Of a stretch of DNA of 64,000 nt, positions 20,728-33,398 are shown piece by piece. The notes under the pieces are model-generated. The model did not search any database, had not been told where the DNA came from, and saw only the letters and a list, made by a program, of their open reading frames with translations. How positions within the stretch are numbered: position 1 is the first letter of the stretch; each line of letters begins with the position of its first letter. Made by a program: the position numbers and the translations under genes. This stretch comes from Verrucomicrobiaceae bacterium (lineage in GTDB: Bacteria; Verrucomicrobiota; Verrucomicrobiia; Verrucomicrobiales; Verrucomicrobiaceae). The stretch is taken from the NCBI GenBank assembly GCA_019694165.1, contig JAIBCL010000008.1, forward strand, positions 1 through 64,000, given 5' to 3'.

Positions 20728-23121
20728 ATGGCCCACACGACCCGCGCTGTTTTCCGCACCATTCCGATTCGCGAACTGATCGCCGACGATCTGCTCGACA
20801 TCTCGAAGAGCATGAAGCTCTCGCTCTCACGGGCGGACATGCTGGCGGTGCAGAAGATTTATCAGGACGAAGGTCGCGATCCGACGGACGTGGAGCTGGA
20901 AGTCATCGCTCAGACGTGGAGCGAGCATTGCAAGCACCGCATCTTCAACGCGAAGATTTATCACACGGTCGATGGCAAGCAGGAGGTGATCGACAGCCTC
21001 TTCAAGACGTATATCCGCAGCGTCACGCAGGAGATCATGAAGCAGAAGCCGGACTTCGTGCTCAGCGCGTTCGTCGATAACGCCGGCTTCGTGAAGCTCG
21101 ATGCCGACAAGGCCGTGTGCCTCAAAGTCGAGACGCACAATCACCCGAGCGCCATCGAGCCGTATGCCGGCGCAAACACGGGCCTCGGCGGCGTGATTCG
21201 GGACATTCTCGGCGCGGGCAAGGGCGCGAAGCCGGTGGCGTCGCTTGATGTGTTTTGCTTCGGCCCGCCGGATACGAAGCAGGAGGATTTGAAGGCGAAG
21301 GACGTCATCCATCCGCTCGGTGTGATGCGTGGCGTCGTGCGCGGCGTGCGCGATTACGGCAACCGCATGGGCATCCCGACGGTGAACGGCGCGATCCAGT
21401 TCGACGACACGTTCATCTACAATCCGCTCGTGTTCTGCGGCACGGCGGGCGTGATCCCGATCAAGGACATCGAGAAGGAGGTGAAGCCCGGTCACTTGCT
21501 CATCGCGGCCGGTGGTCGCACGGGCAAGGACGGCCTCAAAGGCGCGACGTTCAGCTCGGCATCGCTCACGACGGACTCGCACGAAGAAGACCAAACGGCG
21601 GTGCAGATCGGCAATCCCATCGAGGAGAAAAAGGTGGCCGACTTCGTCCTCGCCGCGCGTGAGGCTGGGTTGATTGAGTTTGTGACCGATTGCGGCGCGG
21701 GTGGTTTCTCCAGCGCGGCTGGCGAGATGCTCAGCGAGGTGGGCGGTGAAGTGTGGCTGGAGAATTGCCCGCTGAAGGTGCCGGATCTTGAAAGCTGGCA
21801 GGTGTTCATTTCTGAATCACAGGAGCGCATGGTGATGGCGATCGAGGAGAAGAATCTCCCCGCACTGCAAAAGCTGGCCGACATGTGGCAGACGGAGATT
21901 TTCACGCTGGCGAAAGCCGACGGATCGAAGCGCCTCAAGGTGCTGCATCACGGCGAAACGGTCTGCGATCTGCCGGTGGAAAAACTGCACGGCGCGCCGC
22001 GTCGCGAGATGCGCGGCAAATGGAATCAACCGCCTGCGACGACGCCTGCGGTCGGTGTGCGTCCCGAGTCGTGGACGCAGGCACTGAAGGCGCTGCTGTC
22101 CGACTTCGCCATCGTCTCGCGCGAGCCGATCATCCGCGAATACGACCACGAAGTGCAGGGCAACACGATCCTCAAGCCGCTCGCTGGCGCTTCCGGCGAT
22201 GCGCCGCAGGATGGTTCGGTCATCCGCGTGGATGGCAGTGATCAACTCGTCGCGCTCGCCTGCGCGCTGCTGCCCGAGTGGGGCAAGACCGATCCTCATG
22301 CCATGGGTCGCGCGTGCGTCGATGAATGCGTGCGCCAGCTCGTCGGCATGGGTGCGAATCCCGAGCGCATCGCGATTCTCGACAACTTCTGCGTCGGCAA
22401 TCCTGACAGCGAACGCGAACTCGGCGCGCTCGTCGAATGCACGAAGGGCATGGCGGAAACCGCACTTGCCTACGGCACTCCGTTCGTCTCGGGCAAGGAC
22501 AGCTTTTACAACTACTTCGTCACCGACGAAGGCCCTGTGTCGATTCCGACCACGCTGCTCGTCAGCGGCTTCGGCATTGTCGAGGACGCCAAACATGTCG
22601 TCGGCTCATCGCTTCGTCGCGTCGGCAGCAAGATCTGCGTCCTCGGCAAAACAACGCCCGGCCTTCGCGGCAGCGTCTTTGCACGACACGCGAAAGGCAC
22701 CGGCCTCAATGGCGCGCCGACATGGAGCGACTCTGACAACTGGGCGATGTATCAGAAGTATCACGCGCTCGTGAAGCAAGGCGCGGTGCTCGCCTGCCAC
22801 GACATTTCCGAAGGCGGACTCGCCGTCGCGCTCGCCGAGATGGCCTTCTCCGGCAAGGCGGGCCTCAAAATCGAACTCGAAAACCTTCCGGCCAAAGATT
22901 GCACCCTGGCCGAGATCATGTTCGGCGAGACGCCGGGCCGGCTCCTTCTCGAAATCGATCCCGAAAACATGGAAGCCGCCCGCGAGGCCGGCTGCATCGT
23001 TATCGGCGAGACGACCGGCGAGAAGTGGCTCCACATCACGCTTCGCAACAGCACACTCATTGACTCGAACGTCGCCGACCTCAAGCCATTGTGGCAGGGC
23101 GGACTGACGCCCTACTACTGA
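20728..23121 (+). CDS. purL: Phosphoribosylformylglycinamidine synthase subunit PurL
   Basis: A 797-residue small-type PurL, the catalytic subunit that converts FGAR to FGAM with ATP and ammonia delivered by PurQ in purine synthesis. The signature WSEHCKHR is at 64-71 and the ATP/metal motif ETHNHPS at 135-141, followed by GANTGLGGVIRD. The second half repeats the AIR-synthase-type fold (GKDSFYNYF, CHDISEGGLAVALAEM, ETPGRLLLE). It is slightly longer than the common 740-residue form. Its stop overlaps the end of a convergent gene by seven bases. purQ is about 10.5 kb further on in the same direction and no purS was seen. Confidence 0.97.
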   Translation: MAHTTRAVFRTIPIRELIADDLLDISKSMKLSLSRADMLAVQKIYQDEGRDPTDVELEVIAQTWSEHCKHRIFNAKIYHTVDGKQEVIDSLFKTYIRSVTQEIMKQKPDFVLSAFVDNAGFVKLDADKAVCLKVETHNHPSAIEPYAGANTGLGGVIRDILGAGKGAKPVASLDVFCFGPPDTKQEDLKAKDVIHPLGVMRGVVRGVRDYGNRMGIPTVNGAIQFDDTFIYNPLVFCGTAGVIPIKDIEKEVKPGHLLIAAGGRTGKDGLKGATFSSASLTTDSHEEDQTAVQIGNPIEEKKVADFVLAAREAGLIEFVTDCGAGGFSSAAGEMLSEVGGEVWLENCPLKVPDLESWQVFISESQERMVMAIEEKNLPALQKLADMWQTEIFTLAKADGSKRLKVLHHGETVCDLPVEKLHGAPRREMRGKWNQPPATTPAVGVRPESWTQALKALLSDFAIVSREPIIREYDHEVQGNTILKPLAGASGDAPQDGSVIRVDGSDQLVALACALLPEWGKTDPHAMGRACVDECVRQLVGMGANPERIAILDNFCVGNPDSERELGALVECTKGMAETALAYGTPFVSGKDSFYNYFVTDEGPVSIPTTLLVSGFGIVEDAKHVVGSSLRRVGSKICVLGKTTPGLRGSVFARHAKGTGLNGAPTWSDSDNWAMYQKYHALVKQGAVLACHDISEGGLAVALAEMAFSGKAGLKIELENLPAKDCTLAEIMFGETPGRLLLEIDPENMEAAREAGCIVIGETTGEKWLHITLRNSTLIDSNVADLKPLWQGGLTPYY

Positions 23122-25049
23122 TGCGAAGGCGTCAGAGCTGCCGCAGCTTCGGCGGCTTTGATCGAGGCGAGCAGATTCTCGTCCGGAGTGCACAGCGTTG
23201 AAGCGATGCGGAAATGCTCAAGCGCGCGGCCGGGTTGGTTGGTGCTCAGGTAGATGCGCCCCAGCATGATGTGAGGCATGGGATTGTCGGGCGCGGTTTC
23301 GACCGCCTGCTTCAAGACTGGCAGCGCGCGCCCTACGTCGCCGACGCCGGCATAGGCGATTCCGAGCGTGTAGGTCACGGGCGGGGAATCGGCGGCGGCG
23401 CGATCCCCGTCGATGAGCCGGTGCATGGTGTCGAGCGCCTCGCGGGGCTGGTTGAGTCGAAGCAGGGAGTTGGAGAGATTGAACATGCTTGTGTGATCGT
23501 CCGGCTTGATGCGCAGCGCCTCTCGGTAGCAGCCGACGGCCTCCTGGTCTCGACCCGCATCGGCGAGGTGAGCGCCGAGGCTGCCCCACGCGCGATGGTT
23601 GTGCGGGCTCTTGCGCACGGAATCGCTCCACAAGCTCTCGCCGGAGCGCCAGACGGAATTGCGCGCGCATGTGATGCATGCGTGCGCGGTCACGCAAAGG
23701 AAGGCGGCGGCGGGTGCCAGCCGCCGGGCAGCGCGCGGCCCGTGCGTGCGGACGGCATCGAGCGCGCAGGCCATCACGACGAAGATGCCGATCGACGGGA
23801 GGTAGGACCGATGGTCTGCCATGAGGTCCGGAAGCGGCACGAGGCCGGACGAAACGGAGACGGTGATGAAGAACCAGAGCGTGAAGGCAAAGGCGGACGC
23901 CGCGCGCAAGTCATCCCGCCAGCGCCGCCACGCCCACCACGAGGTGACGAGGACGCCGGTGAGTTCCGCAAGGGCCAGCAGCACCGGCGGCTCCGCGAGG
24001 GAATGGTGGAGAGACCACGCCGGATCCGCATTGAGACCTGCGGGCCAAAGCACGCGGTGCAGATAAGCCGCCACGACGGTGATCTGTGTGACGAGGTAGT
24101 ACCAGTGAGGCACCGCGTCGTCCCCGGCATTCACGATGTTCACCGCGCTGGCGAGCACGGAGTCCGCCGGATGCTGCGCCATCGCGGCGAGGACGACCAT
24201 CAGCGGCACCACCGGCAGGAAGATCAGCAGCGGCCAGGCACGACCGATGGCGGCCCGCGGCCGCACACCGCCCGTCAGGGCATCGAGCACAACTGCGACG
24301 AGCGGCGCGGTGAAGACGCACTCCTTCGTCATCATGCCGGCGGCGACGGCGGCCATGGCGCCCAGCCGCCGCATCCACCTTGCACGGCGATCACAAGACT
24401 CGAGCGAGGCAAAGTAGAGACCAAGCGCGAGCAGGAAGAACAGCGTGCTGAGCGACGTGAAGCGCTGGATGATGTAAGTGACCGATTCCGTGGCCAGCGG
24501 ATGAGCGGCGAAGAGAAGCGACGCCGCGGCTGGAACAAAAACGATGGTCCCCGCCGGCAATTGGCGGGCATGAGCACCGCGCGCGAGGAGCTTCCGCAGC
24601 AGCAGCCAGACGAGCGCCGAGTTCAGCGCGTGGATGATGATGTTTGCCACGCGGTACCAGCGCGGGTTGAGTCCGTCGAAGATGTAGTTCAGGCGGAAGG
24701 TGGCGTAGGCCACCGGGCGCAGGATGAAGTTCGTGGCCAAGTCGGGATCGACACCGAGACGCGCCGGGAGGGCGACGAAGTCCGCCAGATGCGCCAGCCG
24801 CGCGAACGTGCCGGCTTCCTTCAGAAACGGATTGCCTTCGATGTAAAGGTGATCGTCGAAGAGCATCGGGAAGTCCGCCGTCCATGCGTACAAAGCGGTG
24901 CAGAGCAAGACGATGAGCGCGGGCACGATGAGCCGGCTCATGCCGCGCCCTTCGGGCGCGGGGTTCGCGCCCGAAGGCGGAGGTGCCGTTGCGACGGCGC
25001 GCCTTGCCGGGTGTCGTGGATCTTGTCTGATTCGTGAGGGTGCCGCCAT
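23115..25049 (-). CDS. TMTC-like membrane protein with C-terminal TPRs, paralog A
   Basis: A 644-residue protein with a cytoplasmic tail, about ten or more membrane helices up to residue 460, then four TPR units (WGSLGAHLADAGRDQEAV...ALEHF). The first external loop has FDDHLYIEGNP, the acidic pair expected of GT-C glycosyltransferases. HPLATESVTYIIQRFTSLSTLF, TKECVFTAP and LMADHRSYLPSIG are shared with three paralogs next door. Eukaryotic TMTC proteins of this plan O-mannosylate secreted proteins, so protein glycosylation from a lipid-linked sugar is a reasonable inference. It is the most diverged and last gene of the series, and overlaps the end of purL by seven bases. A later ATG (24941) is a possible start. 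Confidence 0.85.
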   Translation of the reverse strand: MAAPSRIRQDPRHPARRAVATAPPPSGANPAPEGRGMSRLIVPALIVLLCTALYAWTADFPMLFDDHLYIEGNPFLKEAGTFARLAHLADFVALPARLGVDPDLATNFILRPVAYATFRLNYIFDGLNPRWYRVANIIIHALNSALVWLLLRKLLARGAHARQLPAGTIVFVPAAASLLFAAHPLATESVTYIIQRFTSLSTLFFLLALGLYFASLESCDRRARWMRRLGAMAAVAAGMMTKECVFTAPLVAVVLDALTGGVRPRAAIGRAWPLLIFLPVVPLMVVLAAMAQHPADSVLASAVNIVNAGDDAVPHWYYLVTQITVVAAYLHRVLWPAGLNADPAWSLHHSLAEPPVLLALAELTGVLVTSWWAWRRWRDDLRAASAFAFTLWFFITVSVSSGLVPLPDLMADHRSYLPSIGIFVVMACALDAVRTHGPRAARRLAPAAAFLCVTAHACITCARNSVWRSGESLWSDSVRKSPHNHRAWGSLGAHLADAGRDQEAVGCYREALRIKPDDHTSMFNLSNSLLRLNQPREALDTMHRLIDGDRAAADSPPVTYTLGIAYAGVGDVGRALPVLKQAVETAPDNPMPHIMLGRIYLSTNQPGRALEHFRIASTLCTPDENLLASIKAAEAAAALTPSHQ

Positions 25050-25101
25050 TCAGCGTGGTCGAGGAGTCTGCGTCGTGCAGAGTGCGCATCAGCGCCTGTG
25101 G

Positions 25102-25138
25102 TGGCAATGACACACGCCGCGTCGTGCCGGGCGCCACA
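25102..25138 (-). promoter_or_regulatory. Shared leader element upstream of paralog A (degenerate)
   Basis: On the minus strand this matches the leader of the other three paralogs at TGTGGCGCC-GGC-CGAC and TTGCCA. The central dyad has decayed to GACACACGCCGCG on the plus strand (25109-25121). It is 53 bp from the start codon. Confidence 0.5.
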
Positions 25139-25174
25139 ATTGCCGCGCTCCTCGTGCGTGCGCTTGTGCGCGTG

Positions 25175-27151
25175 CTACCGGATCTGGAAGGGTCCGCCGG
25201 ATGGTACGGAGGCTGGGCCGTTGCCGGCCAGCGCATTTTCCGCCAGCTCGATGCACTCGAGCAGCAGCTTGTCGGGAACCTTCAATCTTGCGGCGGTGCG
25301 ATAATGCTCGAGCGCCAGCGCAGGCCGGTTGGTACGCAGATACACGGCCCCGAGCGCTTGATGGCAGTTCGCATCTTCGGGCATCACGGCCAGGATGTCC
25401 TTGTAGATGGCGATGGCCTCGTCGTAGCGGCCCACTCCGGCGAGGCCAAGCGCGACGGTGAAGACGACGTGCGGCTGCCGGGCAGCCCGCTCATCCAGCC
25501 GGATGAGCTTGAGGCTGGCATCCAGCGACTCCTGAGGCCGTCCGAGGCGCAGCAGCGAGTTCGAGAGATTGAACATGCCGTGCTGGAAGCGCGGCTCCAT
25601 GGCGATGGCTTTTTGGAAATACCTCACCGCCTCTTCCTCGCGGCCCGCGTTGGAAAGCGCGGCGCCGAGATTGCCCCACACGCGATATTTTTGCGGACTC
25701 TTCTCCGCCGTATCGGTCCACAGGCTCACGGACGTGCGCCAGACTTCATTGCGCGCGCACGTTGCCCAGGAGAGCGCCGCCACGCAGGCGAGGGCTGCGG
25801 CGGGCACGGCGGGACGGACGATGCGGGCAAAGCGGCCGGAAGAGGTGCGCAGCATGTCGAGCAGCGCGGCGACCGCCACGAAGACACCGACGGATGGCAG
25901 ATAGGTGCGGTGGTCCGCCATCAGATCCGGCAGCGGCACGATGCCTGAGGACGCCGAGATGGTGATGAAAAACCAGAGCGTGAACACCGCGGCGATCCTC
26001 GCGCGCACATCCGCGCGACGCGCGATGCCGAGCCAGACCGCGCCCACGACGACGGCCGCGAGCGCGGCCAGCGCACGCAGCACCGCCGGCTCCAGCAGCG
26101 AGCGATGGAGCGGCCAGTCGGGATCGAGGTTCAGCCCCGCAGGCCAGAAGATGCGCCCCAGGTAGGCGGCCACGACGGTGATCTGCGAGACGAGGTAGTG
26201 CCAGTGCTCCAGCGGATTCTCGCGCGAGTTCACGATGTTGATCGCGGCATCGAGGCTGAATGTCCCCGCGTGCATGGCCATGGAGATGATCACGACCATG
26301 GCCGGAATGACCGGCAGGCACAGCAGCAGAGGCCGTGCACGCCGGACCGCGGACAGGGGCGGCGTGGCGTTCACCCCCCAGTCGAGGAGCACCGCCACCA
26401 CCGGCGCGGTGAAGGTGCATTCCTTCGTGAACATGCCCGCCAGCAGCGATGCGACGGCCGCCGCCTTCAGCACGGCCGCCCGCCGGCGCGATGCCGCGCG
26501 CAGCGCTGCGAAGAATACGCATAGCGTAAGCAGGAAGAAGAACGCGCTCAGCGACGTGAACCGTTGCACGATGTACGTGACGGACTCGGTGGCCAGCGGA
26601 TGCGCGGCGAAGAGCAGCGCAGCCACGGTGGGAATGAATGCACGCGATCCATGTGGCGGAGCGGGGCTGCCGCCGCCGGTCCACAGCAGGAGGCGCAGGA
26701 GCGCGAAGACTAGCACGGAATTCAGCGCATGGATCACGATGTTCACCGCCCGGTACCAGCGCGGATTGAAGCCATCGAAAGCGTAGTTCAGCCACAGCGT
26801 GGCGTAGGCCGCCGGGCGCATCATGAAGTTCACCGCCAGGTCGGGATCCGCGCCCGCCCGGGCCGGAAAGCAGGCGAACTCCGTAAGGTGCAGCGGGTAG
26901 CTGAAGCTGCGTGCATCCTTGAAGATCGGATTGTTCTTCATGTACATCTCGTCGTCGAAGACCATCGGGAAATCGGCGGTCCATGCGTAGAGTCCCGCGC
27001 AGAGCAGGGTGATCACCAACACCGCCGGCGCGGGCACCAGCCGGCCGGCGTGATGCGGCGCAGCCTCCGGCGGCTCGTCCGCGGGCGCACGCGGGGTCTT
27101 CCGGCGTCCGCTCGTCCGCGTCTGGCTGGTGGTGTTTGAGCTGGCTGGCAT
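25175..27151 (-). CDS. TMTC-like membrane protein with C-terminal TPRs, paralog B
   Basis: 658 residues with the same plan as its neighbours: a basic, Pro-rich cytoplasmic tail to about residue 40, first membrane helix ending LYAWTADFPM, GT-C acidic pair in FDDEMYMKNNP, then HPLATESVTYIVQRFTSLS, TKECTFTAP and LMADHRTYLPSVG, then four TPRs (WGNLGAALSNAGREEEAV..., FTVALGLAGVGRYDEAI..., ALGAVYLRTNRPALAL). Closest by eye to paralog C, including the first 15 bases of coding sequence. No ribosome binding site is evident at the ATG, but the sequence from the leader to the ATG is conserved with C, which supports this start. Predicted role is membrane glycosyl transfer guided by the TPR part. Confidence 0.87.
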   Translation of the reverse strand: MPASSNTTSQTRTSGRRKTPRAPADEPPEAAPHHAGRLVPAPAVLVITLLCAGLYAWTADFPMVFDDEMYMKNNPIFKDARSFSYPLHLTEFACFPARAGADPDLAVNFMMRPAAYATLWLNYAFDGFNPRWYRAVNIVIHALNSVLVFALLRLLLWTGGGSPAPPHGSRAFIPTVAALLFAAHPLATESVTYIVQRFTSLSAFFFLLTLCVFFAALRAASRRRAAVLKAAAVASLLAGMFTKECTFTAPVVAVLLDWGVNATPPLSAVRRARPLLLCLPVIPAMVVIISMAMHAGTFSLDAAINIVNSRENPLEHWHYLVSQITVVAAYLGRIFWPAGLNLDPDWPLHRSLLEPAVLRALAALAAVVVGAVWLGIARRADVRARIAAVFTLWFFITISASSGIVPLPDLMADHRTYLPSVGVFVAVAALLDMLRTSSGRFARIVRPAVPAAALACVAALSWATCARNEVWRTSVSLWTDTAEKSPQKYRVWGNLGAALSNAGREEEAVRYFQKAIAMEPRFQHGMFNLSNSLLRLGRPQESLDASLKLIRLDERAARQPHVVFTVALGLAGVGRYDEAIAIYKDILAVMPEDANCHQALGAVYLRTNRPALALEHYRTAARLKVPDKLLLECIELAENALAGNGPASVPSGGPFQIR

Positions 27152-27190
27152 CAGTGGCTGGGCTGCGAACCTGCGCCGCCACGCGTCTGG

Positions 27191-27228
27191 CTGACAAAAG
27201 ACATGTCGTGTAGTGCCCGGCGCTACAC
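27191..27228 (-). promoter_or_regulatory. Shared leader element upstream of paralog B
   Basis: Minus strand reads GTGTAGCGCCGGGC then ACTACACGACATGTCTTTTG, nearly identical to the leader of paralog C. It lies 40 bp before the ATG. The dyad here is GACATGTCGTGTA on the plus strand (27200-27212), with one imperfect half. Likely a promoter or regulator-binding region. Confidence 0.62.
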
Positions 27229-27261
27229 GCCTGGTTTGTCATGGGTGACACGCCGCGATTC

Positions 27262-27362
27262 CCGCCCCCTGTGGAAACAGCGCGCCCGCAGAGGCGAATC
27301 GCGGGATGACGCTGGCGACGGACTCCGTGACCAGCGGCGTATGCACGGCGAAGATCGGCGCG
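27262..27362 (-). pseudogene. Relic fragment of a further TMTC-like paralog
   Basis: The minus-strand translation IFAVHTPLVTESVASVIPRF and the following SAGALF align with FAAHPLATESVTYIIQRFTSLSTLF of the four intact copies, and the DNA matches the corresponding part of paralog B at roughly 70 percent by eye (for example GACGGACTCCGTGACCAGCGG). Nothing else of the gene is detectable. It sits between the end of paralog C and the leader of paralog B, and looks like the remains of a duplication or deletion. Confidence 0.65.
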
Positions 27363-27426
27363 CGAAGCAGCGAACGTCTTCTTTCGCAGATCCAGGCGCC
27401 GAGGATGTGCGCGTTGCGGCATCGAG

Positions 27427-29400
27427 CTATCGCAGCCGGATCAGCGGCACGGATGCCGGGAAACTGGCGGCACCACCGAGCATCTCCTCGGCCATCTTGA
27501 TGGAAGCGAGCAGAGACTCGTCGGGCGCCGCGCTGCGTGCGGCGGCTGCGCGGAAGTGCTCGAGCGCGAGGGCGGGGCGGTTGGTGTTCAGATAGACCGA
27601 CCCCAGCGCCTGATGGCACCGCACATCGTCCGGCCGCACGGCGAGTATCTCCTTGAAGACGGCCGCCGCGTCATCGTAGCGGCCCACTCCCGCCAGACCG
27701 AGACCCACGGTAAACACCACGGTGGGATGCCGGGCCGCACGCTCATCCATGCGCACCAGCCGGACGCTCGCTTCGAGCGACTCCTGCGGCCGGCCAAGCC
27801 TGAGCAGCGAATTCGACAGGTTGAAAATCCCGGCTTGAAACCGGGGCTCGATCTTGAGGGCCTGCTCGTAGCACTTCACGGCTTCCACTTCGTTGCCGTG
27901 GTTCGAGTGCGCGGCGCCGAGATTGCCCCAGACTCGGTACTTGCGCGGGCTCTTTTCCGTCGTGTCAGTCCACAGGGACTCGGCTGTGCGCCAGGTTTCA
28001 TTCCGCACGCATGTGCTTGAGGCAAGCGCCACCACGCAGGCGGCCGCCACGACGGACACGGCTCCGCGCGAGAGACCCGGGAGCGGTCCGGCGTGACGGA
28101 CACGGTCCATGATGACTGCGACGAGCACGAAAATTCCGATGGATGGAAGGTACGCGCGGTGATCCGCCATCAGGTCGGGCAGAGGCACCACGCCCGATGA
28201 CATCGAGACGGTGACGAAGAACCAGATAACACCCGTGAGGGCGAGCCGCACACGCACATCGTCACGCCGCGCGCGCCACCACCCGCCGACGCCGCCGAGC
28301 AGCAGAGCGAAGACGGCGAGGGAGCGCAGCACCGGCGCCTCCAAGAGCGAGCGATGCAGCGGCCAGTCGGGATCGAGATTCAGGCCCGCGGGCCAGATGA
28401 TACGTCCGAGATAGGCGGCCACCACCGTCGTCTGGGTGACCGCGTAGTGCCAGTGCTCGAACGGCTCCACCTTGCCGTTCACCAGATGAACGGCGTCGTG
28501 CAGAGCGATGTGTCCGCCGTGCTGGGCGGCGGCGATGAGGATCACCAGCAGCGGAATGAGCGGCATGAAGGCGAGCAGCGGCAGCGCGCGCCACAAGGCC
28601 GTGCGCAGCGGCGCGCGGTTCACCAGCCAGTCGATGCACACGGCCATCACCGGCGCGGTGAAGACGCACTCCTTTGACAGCATCCCGAGAAGCAGCGCAG
28701 CCACCGAGGCCGCACGCAGGGCGCTGCGCGCCACGCGCGCCGCAGCCTGGAGGGATGCGAAATACAGGCACAGCGTGAGCAGGTAGAAAAGCGTGCTCTG
28801 CGAGGTGAAGCGCTGCACGATGTAGGTGACCGATTCCGTGGCGATCGGATGAGCGGCGAACAAGAGCGCCGTCACGACCGGAATGAAGGCCGCCGCGCCG
28901 GGCCGCGCGGCGGCTCCGGCTTCACGACGCCGCAGCAGCAGATGCAGCAGCGCGTACACGAGCACCGCGCCGCCGGCGTGGATGACGATGTTCACGGCGC
29001 GATACCAGCGGGGTTTGAAGCCGTCGAAGAGCCAGTTCAGATGCAGCGTGCCGTACGTCGCCGGGCGCATCATGAAATTCGTGGCGAGATCGAGATCGAG
29101 GCTGAGTTTTGCCGGCCGGTTCGCAAACTCCGTGAAGCGCAGCGGGTAGCTGAAGCTGCGCGAGTCTTTGAAGAGCGGGTTGTTGATCAGGTACGGCTCG
29201 TCATCGAAGACCATCGGAAAGTCCACGGTCCACGCATAAAGTCCCGCGCAGAGCAGGAAGATGAGCAGCGCGACCGCCGCATGAACCAGCCGGCGCGCAC
29301 CATGCGGCGCAGCCGCCGACTCACCCGGCCCCGGCGCACGTCGATCCGCGCGGCCCCCGGCCGACATCTTCTGGCTGGCATTGTGTGAACAGGCTGGCAT
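27427..29400 (-). CDS. TMTC-like membrane protein with C-terminal TPRs, paralog C
   Basis: 657 residues. After a tail with RADRRAPGPG comes the first helix and LYAWTVDFPM, the loop FDDEPYLINNP, HPIATESVTYIVQRFTSQSTLF, SKECVFTAP, and LMADHRAYLPSIG, followed by four TPRs ending ALGSVYLNTNRPALALEHF. The strong matches to paralog B run through the upstream region as well, so B and C probably come from the most recent duplication. The predicted topology puts the acidic pair outside the cytoplasm and the TPRs after the last helix. Acceptor proteins and donor sugar are unknown. Confidence 0.87.
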   Translation of the reverse strand: MPACSHNASQKMSAGGRADRRAPGPGESAAAPHGARRLVHAAVALLIFLLCAGLYAWTVDFPMVFDDEPYLINNPLFKDSRSFSYPLRFTEFANRPAKLSLDLDLATNFMMRPATYGTLHLNWLFDGFKPRWYRAVNIVIHAGGAVLVYALLHLLLRRREAGAAARPGAAAFIPVVTALLFAAHPIATESVTYIVQRFTSQSTLFYLLTLCLYFASLQAAARVARSALRAASVAALLLGMLSKECVFTAPVMAVCIDWLVNRAPLRTALWRALPLLAFMPLIPLLVILIAAAQHGGHIALHDAVHLVNGKVEPFEHWHYAVTQTTVVAAYLGRIIWPAGLNLDPDWPLHRSLLEAPVLRSLAVFALLLGGVGGWWRARRDDVRVRLALTGVIWFFVTVSMSSGVVPLPDLMADHRAYLPSIGIFVLVAVIMDRVRHAGPLPGLSRGAVSVVAAACVVALASSTCVRNETWRTAESLWTDTTEKSPRKYRVWGNLGAAHSNHGNEVEAVKCYEQALKIEPRFQAGIFNLSNSLLRLGRPQESLEASVRLVRMDERAARHPTVVFTVGLGLAGVGRYDDAAAVFKEILAVRPDDVRCHQALGSVYLNTNRPALALEHFRAAAARSAAPDESLLASIKMAEEMLGGAASFPASVPLIRLR

Positions 29401-29440
29401 CCGTGGATGAGCGGCGATCCTGCGCCATCACCCGCCTGCC

Positions 29441-29477
29441 TGGCAAAAGACATGGCCTGTCGCGCCCGGCGCCACAC
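29441..29477 (-). promoter_or_regulatory. Shared leader element upstream of paralog C
   Basis: Minus strand GTGTGGCGCCGGGCGCGACA then GGCCATGTCTTTTGCCA, 41 bp before the ATG. It contains a perfect 13-bp dyad, GACATGGCCTGTC on the plus strand (29449-29461; GACA-N5-TGTC read from the minus strand). It is the best-preserved example with that of paralog D. Confidence 0.65.
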
Positions 29478-29524
29478 TGCGGACGCCTGCCGCGATTTCC
29501 GCACCTGGCCGTGCTCTCCCGCGG

Positions 29525-31519
29525 TCACTGCGGCAAATTCAGACGCATGAGCGGCGCGGCGGCCGGGGTGGAAATGGCGAGCGCTCTCTCCGCCATCCTG
29601 ATGCTCTCGTGCAGACGCGCATCCTGCGGCCGGCGCAGGGCCACGCGGCGCAGGTGCTCCAGGGCGCGGGCCGGGCGTCCGTTGTCGAGCAGGATCACGC
29701 CGAGGGCCAGATTGCTCCCTTCGTGTTCCGGGTTGTGCTGAAGGATGGTGTCGAAGGCCGATATCGCATCATTGATCTTCCCCGTGCCGGCGAGGCCGAG
29801 GGCGACGATGAACAACACGTCGGAGTTTCTCCCCCTCGGCATGGCGAAGAGCTTGAGGCTGTGATCCAGGGACTCTTTGGGGCGACCGAGTTTCAGCAGC
29901 GTGCCGGAGAGGTTCAGCAGAGCGGTGCGGAAGTCCGGCTTTATCTCCAGCGCCTTTTCAAAACACGCCCTGGCTTCCTCCTGGCGGCCTGCTTCGGCGA
30001 AGGCCGCGCCCAGGTTCCCCCATGCGCGATGGTTTCCGGGACTCCTCGAGACGGTGTGCTCCCACACGCTCTGATTCGATCTCCACACCTCGTTCCGCAC
30101 GCAGGTGGCGGCGCACAGGGCGACGACGGCGACTGCGGCGCCACCACAGGCCAGAGTGCGCACCAGACGCGGCCGCCACTCGAGCGTCCGCAGCATGTCG
30201 AGCAGCGCGGCGACGGCGACGAACACGCCGGCCGAGGGCAGATGGGCGCGGTGGTCGGCCATCATGTCAGGCAGGGGCACCATCCCCGACGAGACGCACA
30301 CGGTGATGAAAAACCAAAGGGTGAAAACAAAGACAAGCCGCGCACGAACATCGTCGCGACGACGACGCCAGAACCATGCGGCGGAAGCAACGACGGCGGC
30401 GAGAAAGGCGAGGGCTTTCAGCACGGAGACATCGGCCAGCGAGCGAAAATGCGGCCAGGACGGATCGAGATGAAGGCCCGCGGGCCAGAAGATGCTCCGC
30501 AAATACGCGGCCACGACGGTGATCTGGGTGACGATGTAGTGCCAGTGGGAGATTGGCTGATCGAGGGAGTTCACCACATTCACCACGCCCTGGATCGAGA
30601 AGTGGCCGTCGTTTTGTGCCGTCGCCACGAGGATGACGAGCACGGGAACGACCGGCAGGCACGCCAGGAGCGGCAGCGCCCGCCATGCCGCGGTGCGGAG
30701 ACGCGCGCCCAGAACGATGTGATCGATCAACACGGCCATGAACGGCGCGGTGAAGGTGCACTCCTTCGTCTGCATCCCCAGCAGCACGGCGAGGACCGAT
30801 CCCGTCCGCCACGCGATGACTCCGCGCGGTGAAGCCGTCCGCAGTGATGCGAAATGCAGCCCAAGCGCGAGCAGATAGAAGAGCGCGGCCAGCGAAGTGA
30901 AACGCTGGATGATGTAGGTGACCGATTCGGTGGCAAGCGGATGCACCGCGAAGAGCAGTGCCGCGACGAGCGGGATGAAAAGACGGGATCCCGGCGGCTG
31001 CGCGCATGAGCCGCCGCGCACCCTGCCGAGCAGCACGCGCAGCAGCGCGTACAGCACAAAGCACGAGGCGGCGTGGATGAAGATGTTCACCACGCGATAC
31101 CACCGTGGATTGAATCCGTCGAAGATGTAGTTGAGGCGAAACGTGGCGTAAGCCACCGGACGCATGATGAAGTTCGTGGCCAGATCAGGGTCCGTCCCCA
31201 TCTTCCCCGGCCGGGTGGCGAACTCGGAGAAACGCGATGGATAGTCGAAGCTCGCCGCATCCCGAAACACCGGATTGTTCACGAGATAATAGTCGTCGTC
31301 GAAAACCAGCGGGAAGTCCGCCGTCCATGCGTACAGCGCGGCGCAGAGCACGCCGAGCACCAGCGCGACGGATGCGTGCGTGCGCCAGCGGCCCGCCGGG
31401 ACGACCATGTCCGGCAGCGGTGCCGCAGGGGTGCGGGATGCCCTGCCGGCCGGCTTGCGTGCCTTGGTGATGCGATTCTCATGGCGGACTCGTGTGGAAA
31501 ATTGGAAGGGGCTGGACAT
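29525..31519 (-). CDS. TMTC-like membrane protein with C-terminal TPRs, paralog D
   Basis: 664 residues from ATG 31519. The frame is open to 31570, but the start at 31519 is preferred because the leader shared by all four copies lies at 31565-31600 and would otherwise be inside the gene. Landmarks are LVFDDDYYLVNNP, HPLATESVTYIIQRFTSLAALF, TKECTFTAP, MMADHRAHLPSAG and four TPRs (WGNLGAAFAEAGRQEEARACF...). It is the first of the four in transcription order, 105 bp after the response regulator gene, and so the copy most directly tied to the two-component system. Confidence 0.87.
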   Translation of the reverse strand: MSSPFQFSTRVRHENRITKARKPAGRASRTPAAPLPDMVVPAGRWRTHASVALVLGVLCAALYAWTADFPLVFDDDYYLVNNPVFRDAASFDYPSRFSEFATRPGKMGTDPDLATNFIMRPVAYATFRLNYIFDGFNPRWYRVVNIFIHAASCFVLYALLRVLLGRVRGGSCAQPPGSRLFIPLVAALLFAVHPLATESVTYIIQRFTSLAALFYLLALGLHFASLRTASPRGVIAWRTGSVLAVLLGMQTKECTFTAPFMAVLIDHIVLGARLRTAAWRALPLLACLPVVPVLVILVATAQNDGHFSIQGVVNVVNSLDQPISHWHYIVTQITVVAAYLRSIFWPAGLHLDPSWPHFRSLADVSVLKALAFLAAVVASAAWFWRRRRDDVRARLVFVFTLWFFITVCVSSGMVPLPDMMADHRAHLPSAGVFVAVAALLDMLRTLEWRPRLVRTLACGGAAVAVVALCAATCVRNEVWRSNQSVWEHTVSRSPGNHRAWGNLGAAFAEAGRQEEARACFEKALEIKPDFRTALLNLSGTLLKLGRPKESLDHSLKLFAMPRGRNSDVLFIVALGLAGTGKINDAISAFDTILQHNPEHEGSNLALGVILLDNGRPARALEHLRRVALRRPQDARLHESIRMAERALAISTPAAAPLMRLNLPQ

Positions 31520-31564
31520 GCGGCGTCGATCGACGCTCGCAATCTGGCTCCGCAGCCTTTGTGG

Positions 31565-31600
31565 CTGCAAAAGACATGCCCTGTCACGTTCATCGCCACA
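31565..31600 (-). promoter_or_regulatory. Shared leader element upstream of paralog D
   Basis: Minus strand TGTGGCGATGAACGTGACAG then GGCATGTCTTTTGCAG, 46 bp before the chosen ATG. It carries the perfect dyad GACATGCCCTGTC on the plus strand (31573-31585). The left half diverges from the other copies, while the dyad and TCTTTTG are conserved. Confidence 0.6.
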
Positions 31601-31624: not shown

Positions 31625-32302
31625 TCATGCGCCGTGCTCCCGCACCCACTGGCCGGCACGCAGGTAAAGCTCCGCGGCGCTCTTCAATTGCAGCTTGTCC
31701 TTGATGCGCGCGCGATAGGTCTCGACGGTGGACTCGCCGAGATTCAGCGACAGGGCTATCTCCCGCGTGCTCTTTCCGCGGCCGAGCATCTGGAAGACCT
31801 CCAGCTCGCGGTCGGCGAGCGTTTCGATGCCGGCGACTTCCACGGGCGCGCGCTTGCGCGCGAGGCGCTCGAGCAGCCGCGCGGTCACCTGACGGCTGGC
31901 ATAAACGTCGCCGTTCATCACGCAGCGGATGGCCTTGAGCACTTCCGTCGATGCCTCGTTCTTGGTGATGTAGCCCTTCGCGCCCGCGCGCAGGGCACGC
32001 TCGGCGTAGAGTTCTTCATCGTGCATCGAGAGCACCAGCACGTCCACGGACAGGCCGTGCGCCTTGATGTCCTTCACCAGCTCGATTCCGCTCGATCCCC
32101 GCAGCGTGATGTCCACGATGGCGATGTCCGGCGAGGTCTCCCGGATGAGCCGCATGGCATCACGGATGTTGTCCGCCTCACCGCAGATGGAGAGGCCGAG
32201 ATCACGGCCGATGAGCTGGGCCAGATGCTCGCGAAACATCGGGTGATCCTCGACGAGGAGCACCTTGCAGGTTTTCTCGAATTTGCTGTCAGGCCGGATC
32301 AT
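31625..32302 (-). CDS. NarL/FixJ-family response regulator
   Basis: A 225-residue regulator. The receiver domain covers about 12-128, with the acidic pair in VEDHPMFREH, the phosphoacceptor D64 in IAIVDITLRG and the conserved Lys in GAKGYITK. The C-terminal LuxR-type helix-turn-helix (about 160-218) contains LADRELEVFQMLGRGKSTREIA and LGESTVETYRARIK. The start ATG 32302 lies inside the end of the sensor kinase gene (14-bp overlap), so both are made together. The frame upstream of this ATG is a shadow of the kinase gene. It probably binds the dyads in the leaders of the four genes that follow. Confidence 0.94.
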   Translation of the reverse strand: MIRPDSKFEKTCKVLLVEDHPMFREHLAQLIGRDLGLSICGEADNIRDAMRLIRETSPDIAIVDITLRGSSGIELVKDIKAHGLSVDVLVLSMHDEELYAERALRAGAKGYITKNEASTEVLKAIRCVMNGDVYASRQVTARLLERLARKRAPVEVAGIETLADRELEVFQMLGRGKSTREIALSLNLGESTVETYRARIKDKLQLKSAAELYLRAGQWVREHGA

Positions 32303-33398
32303 GTGCTTCGGAGGACGAGGATTGAATGGGGAGGGTGCAGACCACGCTGGTACCGCCGCCAGGCCGCACCATGAGATCGAGACGCGCACCCAGCACCTGC
32401 GCGCGGTAGCGCATCGTGCGCAGGCCCATGCCCTCGCCGCCGTGCGCGGCCCGCGTCGCGTAAAGGCCCGCGCCGTCATCGCCGATGCGCAATTGCAGAG
32501 CACCGGCATCCTGGCACAGGGTGATCGAGATGTTGCGCGCCCGGCCATGGCGCACCGCGTTTGCCACCGCCTCCTGGGCGATGCGGTAGAGGTGCATGGA
32601 TGCCCCGGGGCTCTCGAGATGCACATCCGCCTCCTCGTGAAACTCGATGGCCGCTCCGGTCAGGCGGCCGGTCATGCGTGCCAGCTCTCCCAGGGCCGCG
32701 GACAGTCCTCCGCGGTCCACATGCACGGGGAAAATCCCGCGCGCCAGATCACGCGCCTCCATCATCGCCTGCCGGATGGATTCCTCGATCATCTCCGCAT
32801 CACGCGCCTCCCCCATCGAGCGTGCCCTGAGATCCTCCGCCAGCGCGTGGGCCGCGCAGCCGATGGCTGCCAGATTCTGGCAGAGGCCGTCGTGCAGGTC
32901 CTGCCCGATGCGCTGCTGCTCGTACTCGCTCACGCTCACGATGTCGCGCTCGAGCTGGCGGCGCTCCTCCAGCATCCGGATGCGCGCGGCGTCCTCGTCC
33001 TGCCTGGTCCGCACCGCGGAGACCGCGAAGACAACGACGCAAAAGTAGAACAGCCGGTTTACCAGCGCCCACGCGTAGCCGAGCTGCGTCTCGTAGGGGT
33101 GCGACGATTCATTCGCCACCCACCACGATGCGCCGCACACCAGTGCGACGGCCACTCCCCCTCGCGGCCCGCACCACCACACGGCCAGGGTGATGGGCAG
33201 CGCATAGAAGATGAAGAGGCTCACCTCCCAGCCCGTGATGAAATCCAGCCAGCCCATCAGCACCGCGAACAACATCGGCACGACGCACGAAATCCAGCCC
33301 GGCTGCCGGCGCATGAACACCGTGGCCGATGACCATGCCTCCCAGAATCTCTTCTCGGACACAGGTGGATACATCGCGGTGAGTGTGCTCGCTTTCAT
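32289..33398 (-). CDS. Membrane sensor histidine kinase, HisKA_3 (NarX/DegS) type
   Basis: A 369-residue kinase. Four membrane helices lie in 38-130 with only short loops, so it probably senses a signal in or near the membrane. A coiled linker (about 132-160) leads to the HisKA_3 dimerisation domain, with the phosphorylated H169 in QQRIGQDLHDGLCQNLA. The ATPase domain has N-box HLYRIAQEAVANAVRHG and G1 box IGDDGAGL. No ligand domain is recognised. It is the first gene of the minus-strand block that ends with paralog A, and overlaps its cognate regulator. Confidence 0.93.
   Translation of the reverse strand: MKASTLTAMYPPVSEKRFWEAWSSATVFMRRQPGWISCVVPMLFAVLMGWLDFITGWEVSLFIFYALPITLAVWWCGPRGGVAVALVCGASWWVANESSHPYETQLGYAWALVNRLFYFCVVVFAVSAVRTRQDEDAARIRMLEERRQLERDIVSVSEYEQQRIGQDLHDGLCQNLAAIGCAAHALAEDLRARSMGEARDAEMIEESIRQAMMEARDLARGIFPVHVDRGGLSAALGELARMTGRLTGAAIEFHEEADVHLESPGASMHLYRIAQEAVANAVRHGRARNISITLCQDAGALQLRIGDDGAGLYATRAAHGGEGMGLRTMRYRAQVLGARLDLMVRPGGGTSVVCTLPIQSSSSEAHDPA

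Follow-up and report, generated by a model that had tools for sequence, protein, structure and literature searches.

Probable regulated sigma-70-like promoters with putative half-sites for a NarL-type regulator upstream of four tandem glycosyltransferase genes in a Verrucomicrobiaceae bacterium

Four tandem genes for putative membrane glycosyltransferases, located in a 64,000-nucleotide stretch of a Verrucomicrobiaceae genome (contig JAIBCL010000008.1, positions 1 to 64,000; hereafter the window), are each preceded by a conserved element. The best overall explanation of these elements, and a likely one, is that they are regulated sigma-70-like promoters with half-sites for a NarL-type response regulator placed directly upstream. 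According to the proposed mechanism, the histidine kinase encoded upstream would phosphorylate the regulator, a dimer of which would bind an inverted repeat in each leader, possibly with a further protomer on a third half-site beside the -35. The bound regulator would then recruit RNA polymerase, separately for each of the four GT-C/TPR genes. Since the same box precedes an FdtB-like aminotransferase gene in related genera, the regulator would coordinate the making and the attaching of a lipid-linked amino sugar.

The four genes, designated A to D, lie on the minus strand and belong to one GT-C/TPR family, with 50-63% identity to paralog C. Paralog A (23115-25049) is a GT-C glycosyltransferase with C-terminal TPRs by homology to C, paralog B (25175-27151) is 63% identical to C, paralog C (27427-29400) has a structural model of mean pLDDT 89, and paralog D occupies 29525-31519, its start codon being likely the ATG at 31519 rather than a TTG at 31570. 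Immediately before the first paralog is the gene for a NarL/LuxR-type response regulator with a receiver and a GerE helix-turn-helix domain (31625-32311, minus strand), the proposed half-site binder. This gene adjoins a sensor histidine kinase gene with HisKA_3 and HATPase_c domains (32289-33398, minus strand), whose product is the partner of the regulator.

The preliminary description located four related leaders of about 37 bp on the minus strand of the window. All four are present at those positions, and each proves to be longer, about 60 bp, reaching on to a -10-like hexamer. The GACA-N5-TGTC dyad on which that description centred is indeed intact at C (29449-29461) and D (31573-31585), B keeps half of it and A has a degenerate version; however, the better-conserved inverted repeat is TGTGGCG-N5-CRYNACA. 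The dyad consists of half-sites 2 and 3 of the element joined together, of which only ACA/TGT is conserved, and it was rejected as the primary operator, the outer G-C pair occurring in only 15 of 30 sites. Taken alone, the 13-bp dyad has four exact matches in the window, where chance would give 1.04, and 4 of 100 shuffles reach four, a mild enrichment that carries little weight. The sequence CATGTCTTTTG alone has three matches in the window, a number reached by none of 100 shuffles, and the combined element is far above chance expectation. When the 7.8-Mb genome was searched with a model built from the same four leaders that it recovers, only those four were found (E 1e-9 to 2e-7; next best 0.34). 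A matrix without any site from this genome also ranks exactly these four at the top of the window, with scores of 51.7, 44.6, 43.2 and 6.1, the weakest being that of A, and the next at -0.95. The concern that the motif might be common in the genome apart from these genes is thus answered, as the four leaders are its sole sites in 7.8 Mb.

The anatomy of the element was derived by phylogenetic footprinting, in which weighted information content over the Verrucomicrobiaceae sites resolves five blocks. Half-site 1, TGTGGCG, occupies footprint positions 1-7 with its centre at about -63. Half-site 2, CRYNACA, lies at positions 13-19 in the opposite orientation (centre about -51), and its reverse complement, TGTNRYG, matches half-site 1, the resulting inverted repeat being centred near -57. 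Half-site 3, TGTC, at positions 25-28 near -39, runs into the -35, and the centres of the half-sites are spaced by 12 bp. The -35, TTGCC, begins at position 31, with TTG at 31-33 in 43 of 45 sites, and is separated by an 18-bp spacer from the -10, CARAAT, at positions 55-60. Both A56 and T60 are present in 38 of 45 sites, as compared to 0-6 of 45 at 21 other offsets. The layout of a sigma-70-type promoter, with TTG in the -35, a spacer of 16-18 bp and a -10 with A at its second and T at its sixth position, is therefore found family-wide. If T60 is taken as -7, position 67 becomes the predicted +1, and start codons fall 0-26 nt downstream of it in nearly all genes; as the motif was placed without regard to start codons, their clustering provides an independent check. 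About a third of the start codons are within 3 nt of the predicted +1, and such orthologs probably have leaderless mRNAs. Predicted leaderless orthologs occur in genomes G010, G017, G011, G045, G047, G066, G071 and G074.

An inverted repeat may also form a hairpin, and the element could in principle be an RNA leader, namely a riboswitch, an attenuator or a terminator; indeed, a 10-pair stem in copy B was scored as terminator-like on the opposite strand. Nevertheless, the arms pair at 80.5% against 80.1% with reshuffled partners (212 of 500 shuffles), a search of Rfam gives no match to the element, and transcription is predicted to start only beyond the element, with no T-run directly after the stem on the coding strand. 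An RNA function is thus extremely improbable, and the element is most likely to act as DNA. No covariation between the arms of the repeat was found across the sites, and the proposed dimer symmetry therefore rests on the conservation of the half-sites.

In the window, the promoter of paralog C is composed of half-site 1 (TGTGGCG, 29470-29476), half-site 2 (CGCGACA, 29458-29464), half-site 3 (TGTC, 29449-29452), a -35-like TTGCCA (29441-29446) and a -10-like CAGGAT (29417-29422), all on the minus strand, as are the sites of the other copies; the predicted +1 is at about 29410 and the ATG at 29400. The promoter/operator of B (27168-27227) contains TGTAGCG (27221-27227), CACTACA (27209-27215) and TGTC (27200-27203), followed by a -35, TTGTCA (27192-27197), and a -10, CAGGTT (27168-27173), with a predicted +1 at about 27161 and the ATG at 27151. 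That of D lies at 31541-31600, with TGTGGCG (31594-31600), CGTGACA (31582-31588), TGTC (31573-31576), a -35 of TTGCAG (31565-31570), a -10 of CAGATT (31541-31546) and a predicted +1 at about 31534. The site of A (25079-25138; ATG 25049) is degenerate. It includes TGTGGCG (25132-25138), CACGACG (25120-25126), a -35 of TTGCCA (25102-25107) and a -10 of CACTCT (25079-25084), and its predicted +1 is at about 25072. In this copy ACA has changed to ACG, one nucleotide is inserted before the -35 and the spacer measures 17 instead of 18 bp; with a wide model it scores 17.1 bits, with an E of 0.04 in the genome. The earlier suggestion that the copies are independently tuned is plausible only for A, which has a clearly weaker site and would fit weaker or altered control, as B, C and D are all high-scoring.

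The four -10 hexamers match the consensus at two or three of six positions, short of near-consensus sigma-70 hexamers. They keep the key A and T, the positions shared by 38 of 45 sites, and are otherwise weak. A simple sigma-70 consensus scan of the window picked up none of the four promoters. Weak -10s of this kind would fit activator-dependent promoters.

Since copy D, which reads GGGCATGTCTTTTGCA, resembles a -24/-12 promoter, the possibility that the element is a sigma-54 promoter was tested. The family consensus AGGCATG-N4-TTGCC is similar to TGGCACG-N4-TTGCW, and the match is good in copy D and some relatives. However, the GG(-24)/GC(-12) pair at N10 occurs in only 12 of 45 sites, TGTC is strongly conserved where the N4 of a sigma-54 promoter would vary, a -10 with correctly placed A and T follows, and the linked regulator has no AAA+ domain. 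The rpoN gene is present in all 20 of 20 genomes tested, which agrees with a sigma-54 promoter and makes its absence unusable as a test. A sigma-54 promoter is on these grounds very unlikely, and the sigma-70-like reading is retained.

The conservation of the element across the Verrucomicrobiaceae strongly supports the view, already advanced in the preliminary description, that each leader is a promoter or operator. Of the 68 genomes of the family, 35 have transferase orthologs, and the ungapped element lies upstream of 45 orthologous transferase genes from several genera, that is, most orthologs in the family. In a leave-one-genus-out analysis, in which each genus was scored with a matrix trained on the other genera, 47 of the 52 upstream regions outscored 99 or more of 100 shuffles that preserved dinucleotides; the same register was recovered separately by the inverted-repeat half in 46 of 52 and by the promoter half in 37 of 52. 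Transferase copies distant from regulator genes keep the box in a more or less degenerate form. A non-functional residue of tandem duplication, copied together with the upstream DNA, might be considered, given that the four genes are tandem paralogs and that the leaders of B and C are alignable for 86 bp, the start codon included. Yet C and D share the box only, with flanks that cannot be aligned; the box is kept among genera whose transferase proteins are 31-55% identical, whereas the adjoining positions carry almost no information; and it also precedes the non-homologous FdtB-like genes. The probability of a mere residue is close to negligible. Related transferases also occur in other Verrucomicrobia; there the gene mostly stands close behind a GT2 gene, the gap being small or absent, and a search for a different box gave no inverted repeat common to them.

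The NarL-type regulator suggested at the outset as the binder is supported as a candidate by synteny, by co-occurrence in 68 genomes, by the absence of sites without an ortholog and by its recognition helix. Conserved inverted half-sites near the -35 (TGTGGCG-N5-CRYNACA and TGTC) are accompanied by a cognate REC-GerE regulator and a HisKA_3 kinase encoded with the targets, as in response-regulator-controlled promoters. All 35 of the 35 transferase genomes have a regulator ortholog (61-84% identity), four of the 68 genomes have only the regulator, so that the transferase was not found in 4 of 39 genomes with the regulator, and 29 have neither (Fisher P 3e-15, a value that ignores phylogeny). 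Among 80 relatives from all bacteria, those transferases outside the family that have a regulator of 30-49% identity nearby, or none, lack the site; where a regulator is present, most of them begin at or shortly after the end of a GT2 gene.

A different regulator might act on the same promoters and half-sites, the two-component genes adjoining them for other reasons. In this regard, transferase copies away from regulator genes still carry the site (contigs G011:C58, G011:C4 and those of G071), and the genomes encode other NarL-type regulators, none exceeding 48% identity (40-48%), a sharp gap below the 61-84% of the close orthologs. Conversely, the presence of the site follows the orthologous regulator, which is encoded immediately upstream of the transferase in most loci, and the recognition helix TVETYRARI is near invariant among orthologs, conserved along with the site. 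Another binder is accordingly unlikely, and the association of the linked regulator with the box is strong. From these comparisons of genomes it is likely that the NarL-type regulator binds the half-sites, and it seems reasonably probable that it activates rather than represses. No box was found upstream of the regulator's own gene in this genome, and autoregulation therefore gives no added link. One genome, G011, carries three close regulator orthologs (contigs C32, C46 and C52) together with four transferases.

The predicted targets are TMTC/ArnT-like GT-C membrane glycosyltransferases with TPRs. The model of paralog C matches OST (Z 19.9), Pmt4 (19.0) and ArnT (17.8) over residues of about 30-490, that is, the GT-C membrane fold of the GT-C/PMT clan, and TPRs follow this part. 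The GT-C match came from a second aligner; Foldseek with the full model gave only TPR matches among its top-ranked ones. An acidic pair near the N terminus, D66 D67, is at least 90% conserved in 29 sequences. TMTCs have been placed in the ArnT-like GT-C/PMT clan and have the same layout of a GT-C part followed by TPRs (PMC7801869). As in ArnC/ArnT and TMTC systems, related loci carry an ArnC-like GT2, FdtA and an FdtB-like transaminase. Unlike those systems, four tandem copies are found here, each with its own predicted regulated promoter; the paralogs have no DUF1736 match, and the sugar genes of this genome lie elsewhere.

Genomes of the Prosthecobacter type point to a possible wider regulon. 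In these, the kinase, regulator and transferase genes are preceded by those for a DegT-family transaminase, a methyltransferase, an ArnC-like GT2 and FdtA, which together form the enzyme set that a lipid-linked 3-amino-deoxyhexose would be expected to require. Of 21 loci, 16 have the box before the FdtB-like transaminase, and the TPR transferase is preceded by it in 14 of 14; among 108 other genes of these loci it stands before only 2. The transaminase gene of G047 and G071, though placed on another contig, still has the box upstream. These data suggest a small regulon for lipid-linked amino-sugar glycosylation in Prosthecobacter-type genomes, the sugar pathway itself being somewhat probable. 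In the present genome other contigs carry the sugar genes and the FdtB-like transaminase has no clear box, so that the predicted regulon here comprises the four transferases only. In the present genome and the others checked from genera g1, g10 and g6, the FdtB-like gene is relocated and shows no clear site. It may be tentatively proposed, at slightly less than even chance, that a dedicated two-component system of the Verrucomicrobiaceae uses one composite box of three half-sites at 12-bp steps to control directly, and in concert, an expanding array of TMTC-like transferases and the production of a 3-amino-deoxyhexose that is linked to undecaprenyl phosphate and possibly methylated. If true, this would be an inducible bacterial counterpart of TMTC glycosylation with its own regulon.

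Ahead of the FdtB-like gene, four loci (L179:4303, L180:8578, L190:6604 and L192:5481) have a box whose third half-site is complete or almost so; this box reads TGTGGCG-N5-CGCCACA, directly followed by TGTGGCG and then by GTTATTTGC. In relatives, a further site recurs some 3.5 kb upstream, within the coding sequence of the methyltransferase; a conserved RRY...HVR peptide largely accounts for it, and it was not counted as a promoter. Such lookalikes occur a few hundred bases ahead of the GT2 gene at L179:5940, L180:6946, L183:8234, L184:8676, L185:9832, L186:989, L114:6442 and others. A similar site is close to the GT2 start in L182 (7246), L221 (467) and L222 (2926); genomes G047, G045 and G074 have such a site near the GT2 gene. 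The lookalikes reflect either protein conservation or an internal promoter for GT2, FdtA, kinase and regulator.

Known promoters of the NarL/FixJ family, whose regulators have the LuxR-type helix-turn-helix, include the 7-2-7 sites of NarL, the ComA boxes and class II promoters of the LuxR-box type. There, too, inverted half-sites lie shortly upstream of the -35 of a housekeeping promoter or abut it, and a HisKA_3 kinase and a GerE-domain regulator are encoded alongside. The element described here differs from NarL sites in its half-site, TGTGGCG and not TACYYMT, and in having two inverted half-sites 12 bp apart, centre to centre, with a third near -39. It does not belong to the NarL/NarP regulon proper, as TACYYMT heptamers in a 7-2-7 arrangement are replaced by a TGTGGCG consensus with a 5-bp gap. 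Unlike NarL/FixJ-type promoters, this box was found in the present analysis only in one family of Verrucomicrobia. A literature search of incomplete coverage found no description of the box or the regulon. In mechanism the proposed system, a two-component regulon built on class-II-like promoters, is conventional; its box, its regulon and the targeted gene family seem not to have been described before. For a gene family of a little-studied phylum, a promoter and an operator are thereby defined and a candidate regulator is named, and the small predicted regulon ties a sensor to surface or protein glycosylation. Moreover, since each paralog keeps its own box, the four copies form a natural series, three strong and one weak, for the diverging control of duplicated genes. 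Between B and C, the minus strand of the window (27275-27370) also holds the remnant of a fifth paralog, LLRAPIFAVHTPLVTESVASVIPRFASAGALF, with 59% identity to D over 32 residues (E 1e-6 in a 341-base search).
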